DNA of 64,000 nt from Acidobacteriaceae bacterium (GTDB lineage Bacteria; Acidobacteriota; Terriglobia; Terriglobales; Acidobacteriaceae): contig PMSQ01000071.1 in assembly GCA_003168355.1 (NCBI GenBank), positions 18,544 to 82,543 of the forward strand. The letters are read 5' to 3'. The first letter of the stretch is position 1, and every line of letters begins with the position of its first letter. A model generated the notes under the pieces. The model saw nothing but the letters and a program-made list of their open reading frames with translations. It was not told where the DNA came from and searched no databases. Position numbers and translations under genes: made by a program. Shown piece after piece: positions 27,352-35,023 of this stretch.

Positions 27352-28413
27352 ATGAAAATCACAATCGCATTCCTCGCGTTCATTCTGGCAAGTTCTCTGG
27401 CTACCGCACAGGACGTCCGCGTCGGTGTGTTCGGCCTGTTCCATCCCCGCCAGCTTGCAGTGAGCGCTCCCGCCGGTTCGGCTCTGGTCGTGCACATTGC
27501 GGGAAAGTCCCTGGTGCTCGAAGAAAGCTCAGGAGTGAACATCGCGGACATCCGCGTCGGGGGAGACAACGTTGTTGTGCGCGTTGGAACCCACATCTTC
27601 CGAGCGGCGAAAATCACGGTGACCAGCCGTAACGGAGGCCCGGCCGATTTCAATCTCGCCATCGCCGGCAAGATCACGCGGCACTATCGCGGCGCACTTG
27701 AAGTGAAACCAGATTCCCGATCTCTGTCGGCTGTGGCAACCATGGATCTGGAAACTGCCGTTGCCTCCGTTGTGGCTGCGGAAGGCGCGGTGGACACGCC
27801 GCCCGAAGCGTTGAAAGCATTGTCTGTCGCGGCTCGATCTTATTTCGTTGCCGGCAAAGGGCGCCACCGCGATTTCGATTTCTGCGATACCACCCACTGT
27901 CAGTTCCTCCGCGAAGCGCCTGCGAGCAACACGGTCGCGGCCCAGGCGGTCGCTGCCACGCGGGGATTGGTCATCGCTTATCAATCTCAACCCTTCGTCG
28001 CCATGTACACGCGCAGTTGCAGCGGGCGTACGCTCACTCCTGCCGAACTTGGCCTGCCTTCAGCCGCCTACCCTTACTATTCTGTCGATTGCAAATATTG
28101 CCGCCAGCACCCGTCGCGCTGGCAGAGCCGTCTCTCGACCGAGGATGCTGCCACCCTCCACAGCTCCAACGAGTCTTCGCGTCTGCGCCTCGACCGTCGA
28201 CTGGGCTGGAACGCCGTCCCAAGCAACACCTTCGTTGTCCAAAAAGAAGGTGAGCAGACCGTCCTGAGAGGAGTCGGCCAGGGACACGGCATAGGACTCT
28301 GCCAGGCTGGGGCCAGGGCGATGGCCGAAGAAGGCGCAGACTTCCGCGAAATCCTTGCTCACTATTACCCGAATACAGTTATCACCACACTCGGCGGCGC
28401 GCCTCTGCGCTGA
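27352..28413 (+). CDS. SpoIID/LytB-type peptidoglycan glycosidase
   Basis: This 353-residue protein has a cleavable signal peptide (residues 1-18, ending TAQ) and a SpoIID domain over roughly residues 110-345. In SpoIID the catalytic acid is a Glu just before the helix leading to the AARSY motif; here it is Glu144. The CDTTHC cluster (Cys178, His182, Cys183) matches the metal-binding part, and GQGHGIGLCQAGA is the family's C-terminal signature. SpoIID enzymes are lytic transglycosylases that cleave glycan strands lacking stem peptides. Next to a transpeptidase-type protein, it suggests the operon remodels peptidoglycan. It is the last gene of the unit. Confidence 0.87.
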   Translation: MKITIAFLAFILASSLATAQDVRVGVFGLFHPRQLAVSAPAGSALVVHIAGKSLVLEESSGVNIADIRVGGDNVVVRVGTHIFRAAKITVTSRNGGPADFNLAIAGKITRHYRGALEVKPDSRSLSAVATMDLETAVASVVAAEGAVDTPPEALKALSVAARSYFVAGKGRHRDFDFCDTTHCQFLREAPASNTVAAQAVAATRGLVIAYQSQPFVAMYTRSCSGRTLTPAELGLPSAAYPYYSVDCKYCRQHPSRWQSRLSTEDAATLHSSNESSRLRLDRRLGWNAVPSNTFVVQKEGEQTVLRGVGQGHGIGLCQAGARAMAEEGADFREILAHYYPNTVITTLGGAPLR

Positions 28414-28680
28414 TTGCCCAGTTTCCCGCCGCTGCTATGCTCGCGGTTGCGCCCGCAAAAAAGTGATAGAGCAAATTCAAATTGTTAATCTTGCCCCCTC
28501 AAAAGCGAATCCCTAAGAAACAGCTAAGTCGTGTCGCTGATCGCATTTGCCCGTTGTAGGTTGGAGGTAAGGCTCAGGTTGCAGCCGAACACCGTTGCGG
28601 AGTTTCTGATTTTTTACTGCCGTGACGATTAGGAAAGACAATTGACGGAGAGATGCCGACCGTCCTAACATGATGTTATT
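28414..28680 (+). other. Intergenic region before the his leader
   Basis: These 267 bases are visibly richer in A and T than the flanking genes. They contain the his promoter candidate near the right end. I see no gene or clear terminator for the SpoIID gene. Confidence 0.45.
28642..28671 (+). promoter_or_regulatory. Candidate promoter of the his operon
   Basis: TTGACG (28642-28647) is a near-perfect -35; TAACAT (28666-28671) is a moderate -10, 18 bases downstream. Transcription would start at about 28678-28680, immediately before the GTG of the leader peptide, so the leader peptide would be read from a leaderless or almost leaderless transcript. Confidence 0.5.
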
Positions 28681-28755
28681 GTGACCTTGCCGAACTACTA
28701 CCGTCACCATCATCATCACCACGCCATGAGCGTGTCGGCGGAGCACTTCGGATGA
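28681..28755 (+). CDS. hisL: Histidine operon leader peptide
   Basis: This 24-residue ORF starts with GTG and ends with TGA. Its codons 9-14 are six consecutive His codons (28705-28722), preceded by two Tyr codons and an Arg. That is the hallmark of a his attenuation leader: ribosome stalling here reports a shortage of charged tRNA-His. An in-frame stop at 28666-28668 limits the upstream end. No Shine-Dalgarno sequence is visible, which fits a leaderless start from the promoter just upstream. It lies directly ahead of a set of alternative hairpins and a terminator, then hisI. Confidence 0.85.
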   Translation: MTLPNYYRHHHHHHAMSVSAEHFG

Positions 28756-28820
28756 AAGCCTAAAAGCACTCATAGGAAATCCAAGCCCGCTGATGCGAAT
28801 CCCGCAACAGCGGGTTTTTT
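28720..28820 (+). promoter_or_regulatory. Histidine attenuator: alternative RNA hairpins
   Basis: Three mutually dependent pairings can be drawn. The pause hairpin pairs CACGC (28720-28724) with GCGTG (28730-28734) and starts at the last His codon. The antiterminator pairs TCGGCGG (28735-28741) with CCGCTGA (28787-28793), including one G-U pair. The terminator pairs CCCGCTG (28786-28792) with CAGCGGG (28808-28814), followed by six Ts. A ribosome stalled at the His codons would block the first hairpin and favour the antiterminator; one that reads on would allow termination before hisI. Confidence 0.78.
28786..28820 (+). terminator. Attenuator terminator before hisI
   Basis: A perfect 7-base-pair, GC-rich stem (28786-28792 with 28808-28814) with a 15-base loop is followed immediately by TTTTTT (28815-28820). 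It ends 53 bases before the hisI start and would stop transcription when histidine is plentiful. Confidence 0.8.
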
Positions 28821-28873: not shown

Positions 28874-29230
28874 ATGGAGATCGACTTCGACAAAATGCAA
28901 GGCTTGGCGCCCGCGGTGATTCAAGATGCGGGCAGCGGCGAGTTGCTTATGGTGGGCTTCATGAACCACGACGCACTGGAGACGACGTTGCGGACGGGCT
29001 TCGTCACCTTCTACAGCCGCACCCGCCAGACATTGTGGACCAAAGGAGAAACCTCCGGTAATCGCCTTGCGGTCGTGGCGGCGTGGACGGACTGCGACCG
29101 CGACACTGTGTTGCTCTCCGTTCGCGTTTTGGGCGCGGGCGTGGTTTGCCATACGGGGTCGAAATCCTGCTTCACGCAGGAGCTACCTCTGGTGGCACCG
29201 GCGCGGGCTGTAGAAGAGGAGGCGCAATGA
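28874..29230 (+). CDS. hisI: Phosphoribosyl-AMP cyclohydrolase
   Basis: The 118-residue enzyme opens the purine ring of phosphoribosyl-AMP, the third step of histidine synthesis. The metal-site signatures are visible: a WTDCDRD segment with Asp and Cys, and a later pair of Cys residues in [10 protein letters not shown]. It is the stand-alone cyclohydrolase; the HisE pyrophosphatase domain often fused to it is absent, and no hisE lies in the operon. AGAGGAG sits six bases before the ATG. Its stop overlaps the start of hisG. Confidence 0.95.
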
Positions 29231-30099
29231 TGAAGCTGCGTCTTGGCATTCCCAAAGGGAGTCTGCAGGAAGCGACGCTCAGCCTGTTCACGCGCGCGGG
29301 CCTGCGCGTCTACACCAGCGCGCGTTCTTACTTCGCTACAACCGATGATCCTGAGATCGAATGCCTGCTCATTCGTGCGCAGGAAATGGCGCGCTATGTC
29401 GAACACGGTGCGCTGGATGCCGGCCTGACCGGTCTGGACTGGGTGCTTGAAAGCGGCCTCGAGGTGGTCCGCGTCGCCGACCTGATCTATGCAAAACAGA
29501 GCATGGGCAAAGTGAAATGGGTGCTGGCCGTGCCGGAGGATTCGAACTTCCAGAAGCCCGAAGATCTCGAAGGCCGGATCGTCGCCACCGAACTTGTGAG
29601 TTTCACGCGCAACTACTTCGCCAGCCGGAACGTGCCCGTGCGGGTTGAGTTCTCCTGGGGCGCGACCGAAGTGAAGCCGCCGCTGCTGGCCGATGCCATC
29701 GTCGAAGTCACGGAGACCGGAAATTCGCTGCGAGCGAACCATCTGAGAATTATAGAAACAGTGTTGGAGTCGAACACGCAACTGGTCGCGAACAAGGGGG
29801 CATGGGCCGATCCCGAGCGGCGGCGCAAGATCGAAAACCTGGCTGTGATGCTTTGCGGGGCCATGGCCGCGCACGGCCGGGTCGGGTTAATGCTCAACGT
29901 GCGCAAGCCAGACTTGGCTTCGGTTCTTGCCCTACTCCCCGCGTTGAAGAATCCAACCGTCGCGCCGTTGGCGGATGGCGAATGGGTCGCCGTTAATACC
30001 ATCATCGAAGAGCAGACCGCGTGGACACTGATTCCGAAGCTCAAGGAAGCGAATGCCCAGGGGATCGTTGAGTATCCGCTGAACAAGGTGGTGATGTGA
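29227..30099 (+). CDS. hisG: ATP phosphoribosyltransferase, long form
   Basis: The 290-residue enzyme joins ATP and PRPP in the first and feedback-regulated step of histidine synthesis. The N-terminal LGIPKGSLQ and the [10 protein letters not shown] segment match the catalytic lobes. The last 75 residues form the extra regulatory domain that marks the long form, which works without HisZ and is inhibited by histidine. The start is one of two adjacent ATGs (29227 or 29230) in an ATGATGA overlap with the hisI stop. Confidence 0.95.
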
Positions 30100-31352
30100 T
30101 GCGCATTCGCATTCTTGACGGGCTTAAGAGGGATCGGTTCGTGCGCAAGCTCGAAGAGCGCGGCGCGAGCGATCTGGCCGAGGTTGAGCCGGCGGTACGG
30201 CGCATCCTGAGCGATGTCCGGCGCAATGGGGATCGGGCTTTGCGCCGCTACGCGGCGCGGTGGGATGAATTGGGCAGGGGCGAACCTGTGCGTGTGCCCG
30301 AGGCTGACCTGCAAGAGGCCTGGCAGCAAACGTCTCCCGAGCTGCAGGCTGCGACCGCCCAGGCCGCGGGCAACATTCGCCGCTACTGCGAGTGGCAGAA
30401 ACCGGAGGAGTGGCGGCGCGAAATTCATCGCGGAGTTTGCGTAGGACAGTTGGTGCGTCCTCTGGAATCGGTGGGCTGTTATGTTCCCGGAGGTCGTTAT
30501 CCGTTGCCTTCCACGCTGTTGATGACGGTAATTCCCGCGCAAGTTGCCGGCGTGCCGCAGATCCGGGTGATGTCGCCGCATCCGGCGCAGGCGACGTTAG
30601 CTGCTGCTGCGTTTCTTGGCGTGCGGGAGTTTTATCGCGTGGGCGGGGCGCAGGCAGTTGCTGCACTTGCTTATGGAACGGAGAGTATCCCGCGCGTCAA
30701 CAAAATTGTCGGTCCGGGCAACCGGTACGTGACCGCAGCCAAGAAGCTGGTTGCATTCGATTGCGCGATTGAATTTCTGGCTGGTCCGACCGAGGCCGTG
30801 TTCATCAGCGAAGAGGGCGATCCAGTTTTCATCGCGTGCGATTTGGTGGCGCAGGCGGAGCACGATCCGGATGCGCTGTGCATCTTAATTACGAGTTCGC
30901 GCGGATTAGCGAAAGCTGTCCAGACGGAACTACAGCGGCATACGCGCGCAAATCCGATTGCGATTGAATCACTTTCTCGTCGCGGAACGATTCTTTTGGT
31001 GCCTTCTATTGACGATGCCGTCGAAATTGCGAACCGCGTCGCGCCCGAGCATCTGACGCTGCCGGCTGCCCTGGCGCCAGCGGTGCAAAACGCCGGCTCG
31101 ATTTTTCTGGACGAGTTTACGCCCCAGTCCGCGGGGGATTACATCTCCGGTCCAAATCACGTATTGCCGACCGGAGGGATGGCGCGCGTGCGCGGCGGCC
31201 TGAGCGTGCTGGATTTCGTTCGTCTTATTTCTTGTCAGAAGATTGCACCGGAAGGGATCGTCGAAATTGGGCCAGCGGCCATCGTGCTGGCTGAAGCCGA
31301 AGGCTTGCGCGGGCACGCGGAATCCTTGCGGGTGAGGTGTTCGAATGCTTGA
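30099..31352 (+). CDS. hisD: Histidinol dehydrogenase
   Basis: The 417-residue zinc enzyme oxidises histidinol to histidine in two NAD-dependent steps, the last of the pathway. Visible family segments are YVPGGRYPLPSTLLM, the KIVGPGNRYVTAAKK strand and HDPDALCIL after AQAE. I chose the ATG at 30099, which shares one base with the hisG stop; a GTG at 30096 is also in frame. It overlaps hisC by eight bases. Confidence 0.96.
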   Translation: MRIRILDGLKRDRFVRKLEERGASDLAEVEPAVRRILSDVRRNGDRALRRYAARWDELGRGEPVRVPEADLQEAWQQTSPELQAATAQAAGNIRRYCEWQKPEEWRREIHRGVCVGQLVRPLESVGCYVPGGRYPLPSTLLMTVIPAQVAGVPQIRVMSPHPAQATLAAAAFLGVREFYRVGGAQAVAALAYGTESIPRVNKIVGPGNRYVTAAKKLVAFDCAIEFLAGPTEAVFISEEGDPVFIACDLVAQAEHDPDALCILITSSRGLAKAVQTELQRHTRANPIAIESLSRRGTILLVPSIDDAVEIANRVAPEHLTLPAALAPAVQNAGSIFLDEFTPQSAGDYISGPNHVLPTGGMARVRGGLSVLDFVRLISCQKIAPEGIVEIGPAAIVLAEAEGLRGHAESLRVRCSNA

Positions 31353-32421
31353 GGCCCGCGCGGCAGTAAAGCGTTTGCAAGTCTATCGGCCACCGTTGGC
31401 TGGCCGCCGGGGACTGCGACTTGATTTCAACGAGAGCACCATTGGTTGCTCGCCGCGTGTATTGGCGCGCCTGCGATCGCTGGATGCCGAAGCGCTAGCG
31501 CGTTATCCTGAGCGCGAACCGGTGGAAGCCGAGGTGGCTGGTTTTCTCGGACTCGATGCGGCGCAGGTTCTGCTCACGAACGGAGTGGATGAGGCGATTC
31601 ATCTGTTGTGCTCGACCTATCTCGAGCCCGGGGACGAAGCGATCATCGTCGTGCCAACGTTTGCCCTGTATGCGATCTTCGCTCAAGTGGAAGACGCTCG
31701 CTTGATCCAGATTCTTTCCGGCGAGAACTTCGCCTTTCCTTTAGAAGATCTGCTCTCGCGGATCGGCCCACGTACGCGGCTGATCGCAGTGGCGAATCCG
31801 AACAATCCTACGGGAACAGTGGTTGCCGGCGAAATTCTGCTTCAAGTGGCTCAGTCTGCGCCCCAGGCGGCGGTCCTGGTGGACGAAGCGTACTTCGAGT
31901 TTCACGGAGAGACAATTCTCAACCATAGGGTGCGACCGGCGAATCTGTTTGTGGCGCGAACATTTTCGAAGGCCTATGGATTGGCTGGTCTCCGCATCGG
32001 CGTTCTCGCCGCGGACGCAGGACAGATGGCGATGGTGCGCCGCGCCGCTTCGCCCTACAACGTGAATGCAGTTGCGCTGGCGGTATTGCCGGAAGCGCTT
32101 CGAGATCAGCAGTACGTCGAAAACTATGTTGCCGAGGTGAGGCGAGGCCGCAGGCTATTGGAGCAGGAGCTCAAAACTCTTGGCCTGCACTGCTGGCCGA
32201 GCAGGGCCAACTTTGTGCTCGTACGCATCGGTCCCGCCCACGCGGAATTCATTCAGACGTTGCGCGCGCGCGGAATCCTGGTGCGCGACAGGAACACCGA
32301 TCCGGGATGCGAAGGTTGCGTGCGCCTGACTGTGGGATCGGAGGAACATACGCGGATCCTGATTGGCACGCTGCGAGAGGTGGTAGAGACACTTGGATTG
32401 CACGGTGAGGTGAATGCGTGA
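31345..32421 (+). CDS. hisC: Histidinol-phosphate aminotransferase
   Basis: The 358-residue pyridoxal-phosphate enzyme converts imidazole-acetol phosphate to histidinol phosphate. It has the fold-type I pattern: LDFNES at the N terminus, [17 protein letters not shown], and the lysine-bearing [16 protein letters not shown]. All these are typical of HisC. The start overlaps the end of hisD and the stop overlaps the GTG of hisB. Confidence 0.95.
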
Positions 32422-33005
32422 GAAAAGCCAAACTGCACCGCAAGACGGAGGAAACCGAGATTCGGATCGCGCTCACGATTGAAGGCCGAGGGAAGTATGA
32501 GATCTCAACCGGAATCCGTTTTCTCGATCACATGTTGGAGCTCTTCACGCGACACGGCGCATTCGATCTGAAACTCGCGGCAGTGGGTGACCTGGACGTC
32601 GATCAGCACCACACGGTAGAAGACGTGGGGATTGCGCTCGGCGAGGTATTTGACCGTGCTTTGGGAAATCGGCGCGGCATTCTGCGTGCCGGTTACTTTG
32701 TCATGCCCATGGATGAAACTCTGGGTTTGGCTGCGGTCGATTTTGGCGGCCGCGCGGCCGCCGTCGTCGATACCAAGGTCCGTGCGATGCGGGTGGGAGA
32801 TCTGCAAGTGGAACTGGTCAGCGATTTTTTCGAGGGGTTTGTGCGAGGCGCGCGCGCCAATGTTCATGTGCGTGTGCTGTACGGGCGCTCCAGCCACCAC
32901 AAGATCGAAGCGATCTTCAAAGCGTTTGCGCGGGCGCTGCGCGTGGCGTGCTCGCGCGACCGTCGCCTGCGCCGGATGCTGCCGAGCACTAAAGGATTTC
33001 TATGA
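32418..33005 (+). CDS. hisB: Imidazoleglycerol-phosphate dehydratase
   Basis: The 195-residue manganese enzyme dehydrates imidazoleglycerol phosphate. The duplicated metal-binding motifs are present: [13 protein letters not shown] and [13 protein letters not shown] in the first half, and [17 protein letters not shown] in the second. It has only the dehydratase domain, so histidinol-phosphate phosphatase activity must come from a gene elsewhere. GTG start overlapping the hisC stop. Confidence 0.95.
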
Positions 33006-33592
33006 TCGCCATCGTAGATTACGGCGCGGGCAACCTGAATTCGGTGAAGAAGGCGCTTGACTATCTCGGTGCCGATGTTGTGGTGACGGGCCAGCCTGAG
33101 ACCGTTGTAGCAGCGGACAAGATTTTATTGCCGGGAGTGGGACATTTTTCTTCTCTGCGAGCTTTGGATCGCGCCGGCTTGCGGGAGGCCTTGTTGCAAG
33201 CCGCTTCCGCCGGCAAACCGTTTCTCGGAATCTGTCTGGGAATGCAGTGGCTTTTCGAAGGGAGTGAGGAGTGCAGCGAGGTCGCAGGAGCAGGCATCTT
33301 TCCCGGTAGGTGCCGGCAGTTTCCGTCCTCAGTGAAGTCGCCGCATGTGGGTTGGAATTCTCTGGCAATTCAGGAAGGCTCGCGCTTGCTGCAAGGCATC
33401 GCGCAGGATTCTTTCGTCTATTACACACACTCTTTCCACGCGCCTGTGGTTAGCGCGATGACGGCGGCTGGCGAATACGGCCTGCAGTTTGCCGCCGCCG
33501 TTGAGCATGGCAACATCTTCGGAGTGCAGTTTCATCCGGAGAAATCAGGAGACGTGGGGCTCGCGATCCTGAAGAATTTCTGCGAGGTCTGA
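33002..33592 (+). CDS. hisH: Imidazole glycerol phosphate synthase, glutaminase subunit
   Basis: The 196-residue class I glutamine amidotransferase supplies ammonia to HisF. The triad is visible: Cys in [15 protein letters not shown], and the His and Glu in GVQFHPEKS near the C terminus. It begins with the usual [12 protein letters not shown]. The start overlaps the end of hisB, and hisF follows one base after the stop, in line with the two forming one enzyme. Confidence 0.95.
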
Positions 33593-33593
33593 T

Positions 33594-34355
33594 GTGTTGA
33601 CCAAGCGCATCATCGCCTGCCTGGACATGGACGGAGGCCGAGTCGTGAAGGGCGTGCGGTTCAAGAATCTACGCGACGCGGGCGATCCGGCGGAGTGTGC
33701 AACGGCGCACGCTCGCAACGGCGCAGACGAAATTGTGCTGCTCGATATTACGGCAACCAGCGGGAACCGGCGCACGTTGCTGGATGCAGTCTTCCGCACG
33801 GCACGCTCGTTGTTCGCTCCGTTTACGGTGGGCGGAGGAATTCGCCAGCTCGAAGATGCAGCGGCGGTGTTCGACGCGGGCGCGGATAAAATCGCCATCA
33901 ACTCGGCTGCTGTGCGCGATCCTGCATTGATCGGCAGGATTGCAGGGCGATTTGGTTCGCAGGCAGTGGTCGTGGCCATTGATGCAAGAAAGGTAGACGG
34001 AGGTTTCGAGGTGTTCGTCGCCGGAGGACGCGTGGCCACGGGCCGGAACGCTATCCAATGGGCGCGGGAAGCGGCTGCGTGCGGAGCGGGCGAAATTCTG
34101 CTGACTTCGATGGACCGGGACGGAACTCAATCCGGTTTTGACTGCCAGCTGGTGCGCACCGTGGCCGAGGCGGTTTCGATTCCGGTCATTGCTTCGGGAG
34201 GTGCGGGATCGGCGCGCGACTTCGTCGAGGTGTTTCGCGAGGGCCGCGCCGATGCGGCTCTGGCTGCATCCATCTTTCACTTCGGCATCGAGAATATTGC
34301 GGAACTGAAGCGCGAGCTGCACGATGCCGGCATACCGGTGAGGTGGCCGTGCTGA
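33594..34355 (+). CDS. hisF: Imidazole glycerol phosphate synthase, cyclase subunit
   Basis: The 253-residue (beta/alpha)8 barrel uses ammonia from HisH to make imidazoleglycerol phosphate and AICAR. The first catalytic Asp is in [15 protein letters not shown], which separates HisF from HisA; the second is in [13 protein letters not shown]. Phosphate-binding loops GGGIR and ASGGAGS are present. Start GTG 33594, with an adjacent TTG possible. It overlaps hisA by a few bases, so hisF lies before hisA here. Confidence 0.95.
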
Positions 34356-35023
34356 TTCCGTCGATTGACCTGATGGGCGGCAAGATTGTGCAGTTGGTGC
34401 AGGGCGATAGGCAAGCGCTGCAGTTCGATAACTTCGACTATTGGATCGAGCGATTCTCCAAGTATCCGCTGGTGCAGGTGATCGACCTCGACGCAGCCAG
34501 AGGCACTGGAAATAATTGGCAACTCGTGAATCGGATTGTGCAGAGGCTCAACAGCCAGGTTGGGGGCGGGATCCGCAGCGTCGAACAGGCGCGGGAGATC
34601 TTAAAGGCCGGCGCGCACAAAGTCATTCTTGGTTCGGTGTTGTTGAAGGATGGCAAGATCGACACGCAGTGCGCTGCCACGCTGGCAAGTGCACTCGGTA
34701 CCGCCGCGCTGGTGTTTGCCCTCGATACCCGAGGCGGCCGGGTCGCGATCGATGGCTGGCGCAAAGATACCGGCGTCACGGCGTTCGACATGATTCAGGC
34801 GCTCGAACCATTCTGCGAGACCTTTCTCTACACGCACATTGACACGGAAGGGTTGATGGGAGGAATCCCAATGGAGACTGTGTGTGCAATCCGGCAGGCC
34901 ACCTCGCGGCGGCTGGTGGTTGCGGGCGGAATCACGACACAGCAGGAAATCGACAGCCTCGGCGCGCTCGGGATGGATGCCGTTGTCGGGATGGCCTTGT
35001 ATTCGGGCCGTATTTCGGCGTGA
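34349..35023 (+). CDS. hisA: ProFAR isomerase
   Basis: The 224-residue barrel isomerase converts ProFAR to PRFAR, the HisF substrate. The N-terminal [15 protein letters not shown] carries the first catalytic Asp; the second is in [12 protein letters not shown]. The GGGIRS and VAGGITT loops bind the two phosphates. I chose the GTG at 34349 because a GGTGAGG site lies at the right distance and the protein then starts like its relatives; GTG 34343 is also in frame. It is the last gene of the his operon. Confidence 0.93.

Follow-up and report, generated by a model that had tools for sequence, protein, structure and literature searches.

A ribosome-mediated transcription attenuator with a leaderless leader peptide very probably controls the histidine operon encoded in the window, i.e. 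the whole 64-kb stretch of DNA analysed here. The position of the promoter, the short open reading frame (ORF), its run of His codons, the conserved and mutually exclusive RNA pairings and the downstream operon are all evidenced by the sequence. The operon comprises eight genes in the order hisI-hisG-hisD-hisC-hisB-hisH-hisF-hisA, and the interval between the TGA stop codon of the leader and hisI holds an intrinsic terminator, situated approximately 50 nt before the operon. The genome from which the window originates is 5.3 Mb in size, distributed over 213 contigs and 92% complete. A first-pass annotation had attributed the DNA to a probable acidobacterium, which agrees with the closest HisG loci (92-95% identical) being those of Acidobacteriaceae or Acidobacteria metagenome-assembled genomes.

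Leader peptide, promoter and predicted transcript start

The features of the region, all on the forward strand, were as follows:

28642..28671, forward: sigma70-type promoter TTGACG-18-TAACAT, the -10 hexamer of which ends 10 nt before the GTG, a position shared by about 80 related loci
28681..28755, forward: His leader peptide ORF of 24 codons, GTG start and TGA stop, probably with leaderless translation
28705..28722, forward: regulatory codons, six consecutive His (CAC CAT CAT CAT CAC CAC), conserved in relatives
28720..28734, forward: segment 1:2 pause hairpin, competitor of the antiterminator, CACGC-CAUGA-GCGUG, from folding
28731..28741, forward: antiterminator segment 2, CGUGUCGGCGG, pairing with 28787-28797
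28787..28797, forward: segment 3, CCGCUGAUGCG, common to antiterminator and terminator, from pairing and covariation
28786..28820, forward: intrinsic terminator CCCGCUG-A-UGCG / CGCA-A-CAGCGGG followed by six T, from folding and covariation
28874..29230, forward: hisI, first gene of the operon (NF000768 above cut-off)
29230..35023, forward: hisG, hisD, hisC, hisB, hisH, hisF and hisA

The leader ORF, with GTG at 28681 and TGA at 28753-28755, encodes VTLPNYYRHHHHHHAMSVSAEHFG. The 24-residue leader with six consecutive histidines ahead of hisI, as drawn in the first-pass annotation, was recovered at these positions, and so were its pause hairpin, antiterminator and six-T terminator with exact pairings, the antiterminator amounting to 11 bp with G-U pairs included. 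Among CAY runs of at least four codons on both strands of the window, the His run at 28705-28722 was the sole case; a first-order Markov model predicted 0.05 such runs per 64 kb, and runs of six or more occurred in none of 20 simulations.

In related leaders, a promoter of the TTGACA/TANNNT type ends mostly 9-11 nt 5' of the start codon, and for 83 of the 99 the end of the best promoter fell at offsets from -14 to -7. The mean promoter score, with weights corresponding to textbook frequencies, was 9.2 for the leaders and 3.2 for random positions, and at none of the hisI starts was a promoter located in the -10 to -5 place. In a second set, drawn from other families, TANNNT ended at -12 to -7 in 23 of 29 leaders. 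Shine-Dalgarno sequences were absent before leader start codons (mean longest match of 2.1, as compared with 2.5 at random positions and 3.8 before hisI), including the GTG 28681 of the window; a small number of relatives, L089 for instance, have a weak GGAG-like string adjoining the start. Furthermore, the frame is closed upstream by a TAA at 28666-28668, so that GTG 28681 is its earliest common start codon.

Transcription generally starts around 7 nt past the -10 hexamer (range 5-9). Since the promoters end 9-11 nt before the start codon and Shine-Dalgarno sequences are absent, a 5' UTR of about 0-5 nt is predicted, and the leader peptide is probably translated from a leaderless mRNA, its transcript start lying, as far as promoter position can tell, at or near the start codon. 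Such an arrangement would dispense with the 5' UTR in the attenuation problem and raise the question of how a 70S ribosome loading on a bare 5' end keeps up with RNA polymerase. It is also consistent with predictions that leaderless genes make up a high proportion in Acidobacteria, i.e. 9.7-19.4% in three genomes (PMC3160421).

Alternative pairings and their conservation

The terminator stem (28786-28814, followed by T28815-28820) had a predicted free energy of -19.3 kcal/mol, and the whole leader RNA was more stable than its dinucleotide shuffles (z = -2.95). Antiterminator (28731-28741 with 28787-28797) and terminator are mutually exclusive, because segment 3 participates in both, contributing also to the 5' arm of the terminator. 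The isolated piece 28725-28805, which mimics a ribosome on the His codons with segment 4 still unmade, folds into 2:3 with -25.8 kcal/mol, and the full leader without ribosome folds as 1:2 plus 3:4, corresponding to the off state. Apart from the short ORF with its consecutive codons specifying the end product of the operon, the region possesses an intrinsic terminator between this ORF and the first gene, an antiterminator that excludes it and is kept by compensatory changes, and a fitting geometry: with a ribosome footprint of about 12 nt downstream (PMC4833913), stalling on 28705-28722 would free segment 2, and a ribosome at the stop codon 28753-28755 would mask it.

In the mechanism that we infer for transcript start, ribosome stalling, termination and histidine response, transcription would begin at, or a few nucleotides before, GTG 28681, so that a ribosome could load directly on the 5' end. 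With charged tRNA-His being scarce, the ribosome would stall in the His run and cover segment 1, so that segment 2 (28731-28741) could pair with segment 3 (28787-28797); the latter would then be unavailable to the terminator, and hisI to hisA would be transcribed. With ample histidine, the ribosome would reach the stop codon at 28753 and mask segment 2, whereby segments 3 and 4 could make the terminator and transcription would end at the T run. Without any translation of the leader, hairpins 1:2 and 3:4 would form and the operon would be off.

For the analysis of conservation, 420 nt located 5' of hisI were scanned in 110 loci (30 of the family and 80 selected by HisG) for His-rich leaders, defined by at least four His codons in nine and a usable start. 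Such leaders were found before hisI in 99 of the 110 loci; those without a called leader include contig ends, loci with no detected hisI, a few frames with fewer His codons and L035, a locus with an inserted intron in which the leader is present farther upstream. Loss of the His run or of the terminator in close relatives had been named in the first-pass annotation as evidence against an attenuator; applied to these loci, this test did not refute it. The terminator follows the leader in 97 of these 99 loci (16% in random genomic stretches), and 94 of the 99 reached a terminator score of at least 15, as compared with 2.8% of stretches taken at random from genomes and 0.6% of shuffled sequences. 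Leader residues outside of the His run differ between lineages.

Compensating changes, another check proposed there, are present in both alternative stems. In an alignment of 28 near relatives (A1), 96.0% of antiterminator cells were paired, as compared with 24-54% when the segments were slid, and four pairs had two-sided changes, a number reached by 1 of 500 shuffles; many of the changes were one-sided, of the G-C/G-U type. In the terminator, 98.7% of cells were paired and four of eight pairs showed two-sided changes, with 17 two-sided cells, which none of 500 shuffles reached; it should be added that kinship among sequences alone can beat shuffles in such tests. Segments 2, 3 and 4 were altered together in L020 and L024 (GCGA / CCTGC / GCAGG), and L018 has CAAG opposite CTT. 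A swap test of 97 loci pointed in the same direction as the antiterminator covariation: in 81 of them, pairing of segment 2 with the segment 3 of the same locus was better than its mean pairing with those of other loci. Covariation was modest in hairpin 1:2, with 86% of cells paired in the 28 relatives and a slide by +2 columns scoring nearly equal. A further candidate pairing, of the conserved CACUCAU stretch after the stop codon with AUGAG of the leader, was dropped, as it is broken in relatives such as L031.

Three other explanations were weighed against these data. The same attenuator might have its leader translated from the 5' UTR of a promoter farther upstream, via a weak or non-Shine-Dalgarno ribosome site, as would be compatible with the transcription start being a predicted one and with the GGAG-like string of a few relatives (L089). 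We consider this rather unlikely: Shine-Dalgarno matches are below random with no enrichment, a near-consensus promoter keeps a constant distance of 9-11 nt from the start codon in both sets of loci, and in the window the in-frame TAA allows no earlier common start than GTG 28681. Far less probable is that the hairpin, lying between two same-strand genes, terminates the upstream gene (27352-28413), with the His-rich ORF being a coincidence or, given that poly-His binds metals, a metal-binding micropeptide. A promoter intervenes between this gene and the hairpin, which is located approximately 370 nt beyond its stop codon, and a covariance-model search of the genome gave a meaningful score at this copy only. 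Also against this reading are the His-rich leaders before the his operon in 99 loci, with residues outside of the His run varying by lineage, and the covariation of segments 2 and 3.

T-box control of his genes is known from Firmicutes and Actinobacteria (PMC9413887, PMC3896937), and yet control of this operon by a histidine T-box or another known riboswitch has next to no probability, as neither the window nor eight related loci matched Rfam, including its T-box models, at gathering score, and as we are dealing with a short element containing an ORF that codes for His.

Relation to known attenuators

Among the closest counterparts of the proposed leaderless attenuator is the his attenuator of E. 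coli and Salmonella (RF00514, His_leader), the short leader ORF of which likewise contains His codons in a row (seven of them in E. coli; PMC3896937), and which has alternative antiterminator and terminator structures in cis to the his operon. However, the window gave no covariance-model match to RF00514 at gathering score or even at a relaxed one, and here hisI is the first gene, the leader is apparently leaderless and the phylum is a different one. In general, Rfam searches of the window and eight related loci with gathering and relaxed thresholds returned chance-level matches only for the attenuator. In Firmicutes (Bacillus cereus group, Peptostreptococcaceae and Erysipelotrichales), His attenuators with terminator and antiterminator were also found by comparison, with proposed leaders having three to five consecutive His codons before his or hisZ/hisS (PMC9413887, PMC2965389); those are reported from a few species groups, whereas the present ones are spread over many families of another phylum.

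Leader peptides without Shine-Dalgarno sequence, translated from the 5' end and setting an attenuator by their translation, are known from ilvBNC of Corynebacterium glutamicum, with a transcription start one nucleotide from the leader start (PMC11857589), and from trpL of Sinorhizobium meliloti, where the transcript starts at the ATG (PMC7298713). These concern other amino acids and other phyla, and their 5' ends were mapped, whereas ours are predicted. The Cys-rich leader ORFs of mycobacteria similarly place a run of cognate codons upstream of biosynthetic genes in a leaderless-rich genome; they differ in the amino acid, and the portions of that report considered here present attenuation as a hypothesis and describe no such intrinsic terminator (PMC4633059).

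According to a 2010 survey, leader-peptide systems were known from Proteobacteria, Actinobacteria and, newly, Firmicutes, and almost none of the predicted attenuators of Acidobacteria had an assigned function (PMC2965389); His attenuators in Firmicutes were added later (PMC9413887). Our literature search, which covered mostly open papers, so that an earlier report is possible, found no his attenuator in Acidobacteriota. Both the mechanism class and leaderless leader peptides are thus already known elsewhere, and it is the combination of leaderless translation with his, together with the spread in Acidobacteriota, that appears to be undescribed. A new Rfam family could be founded on the alignment, which also gives gene callers the means to annotate the small leader ORFs they miss.

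Distribution in Acidobacteriota and other loci

The first-pass annotation recorded a clear case in this lineage; the case is real, but the device is not confined to it, and sequence comparison makes the his attenuator a well-supported and widespread element of Acidobacteriota. A covariance model (R1) matched in at least 75 of 396 genomes, and within the family of the window almost every member searched was among them; in the genome of the window only one copy had a meaningful score. R1, made from near relatives, under-reports distant members, since eight candidates per genome are scored in large searches, and the sequences 5' of hisI were therefore inspected directly. This revealed, outside of the family, approximately 30 genomes in which a His-rich leader precedes hisI and approximately six more (families f6, f22, f46 and f68) in which it precedes hisG, the device being situated before the gene heading the operon, hisI or hisG; the set was partly picked as matches of the model and hence shows breadth, not frequency. 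Upstream regions read in families f24, f29, f40, f48 and f84, among others, had no His-rich leader, and the terminator was not detected in the diverged members L160, L174 and L175. Somewhat more likely than not, this is an ancestral and independently evolved family of his attenuators with leaderless poly-His leaders, the start codon of which is or nearly is the 5' end, kept at the operon head (hisI or hisG) across many families. Cultured carriers belong to Granulicella, Terracidiphilus and Acidipila and offer a well-supported case for work on attenuation.

Several records deserve separate mention. Locus L075 (CALQCC020000041.1), titled Bordetella parapertussis, contains a his operon of acidobacterial type that is equipped with a His leader, and its title looks wrong. 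Records L099, L110, L081 and L101 are titled Armatimonadota or Actinobacteria, with HisG being 66-67% identical to that of the window; weak His-rich frames precede hisI in L099 and L110, and either misnaming or transfer is conceivable. The insertion in L035 (3140-3640, QIAN01000162.1) is a group II intron lacking an ORF (RF02001, E 3e-15; RF00029, E 4e-6), located between attenuator and hisI directly behind the T run of the terminator. Class C introns typically insert behind terminators, and the intron may therefore have used the attenuator as its insertion target.

Other amino-acid operons were scanned automatically in 21 relatives. At the trpE and leuA loci (L223-L263), taken irrespective of whether these genes head operons, no comparable leader or terminator held up; his may therefore be singled out for attenuation. 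For ilvB, the scan of these relatives yielded a weak Ile/Val/Leu-rich leader candidate before one copy of the gene within the genus. Here, approximately 60-250 nt upstream of ilvB in L268-L271, a conserved element combines a short ORF rich in Ile, Val and Leu (e.g. MKNLCLHRIRVVVLGVGVF...) with a terminator; this element, which had no Rfam match, is a candidate second attenuator.
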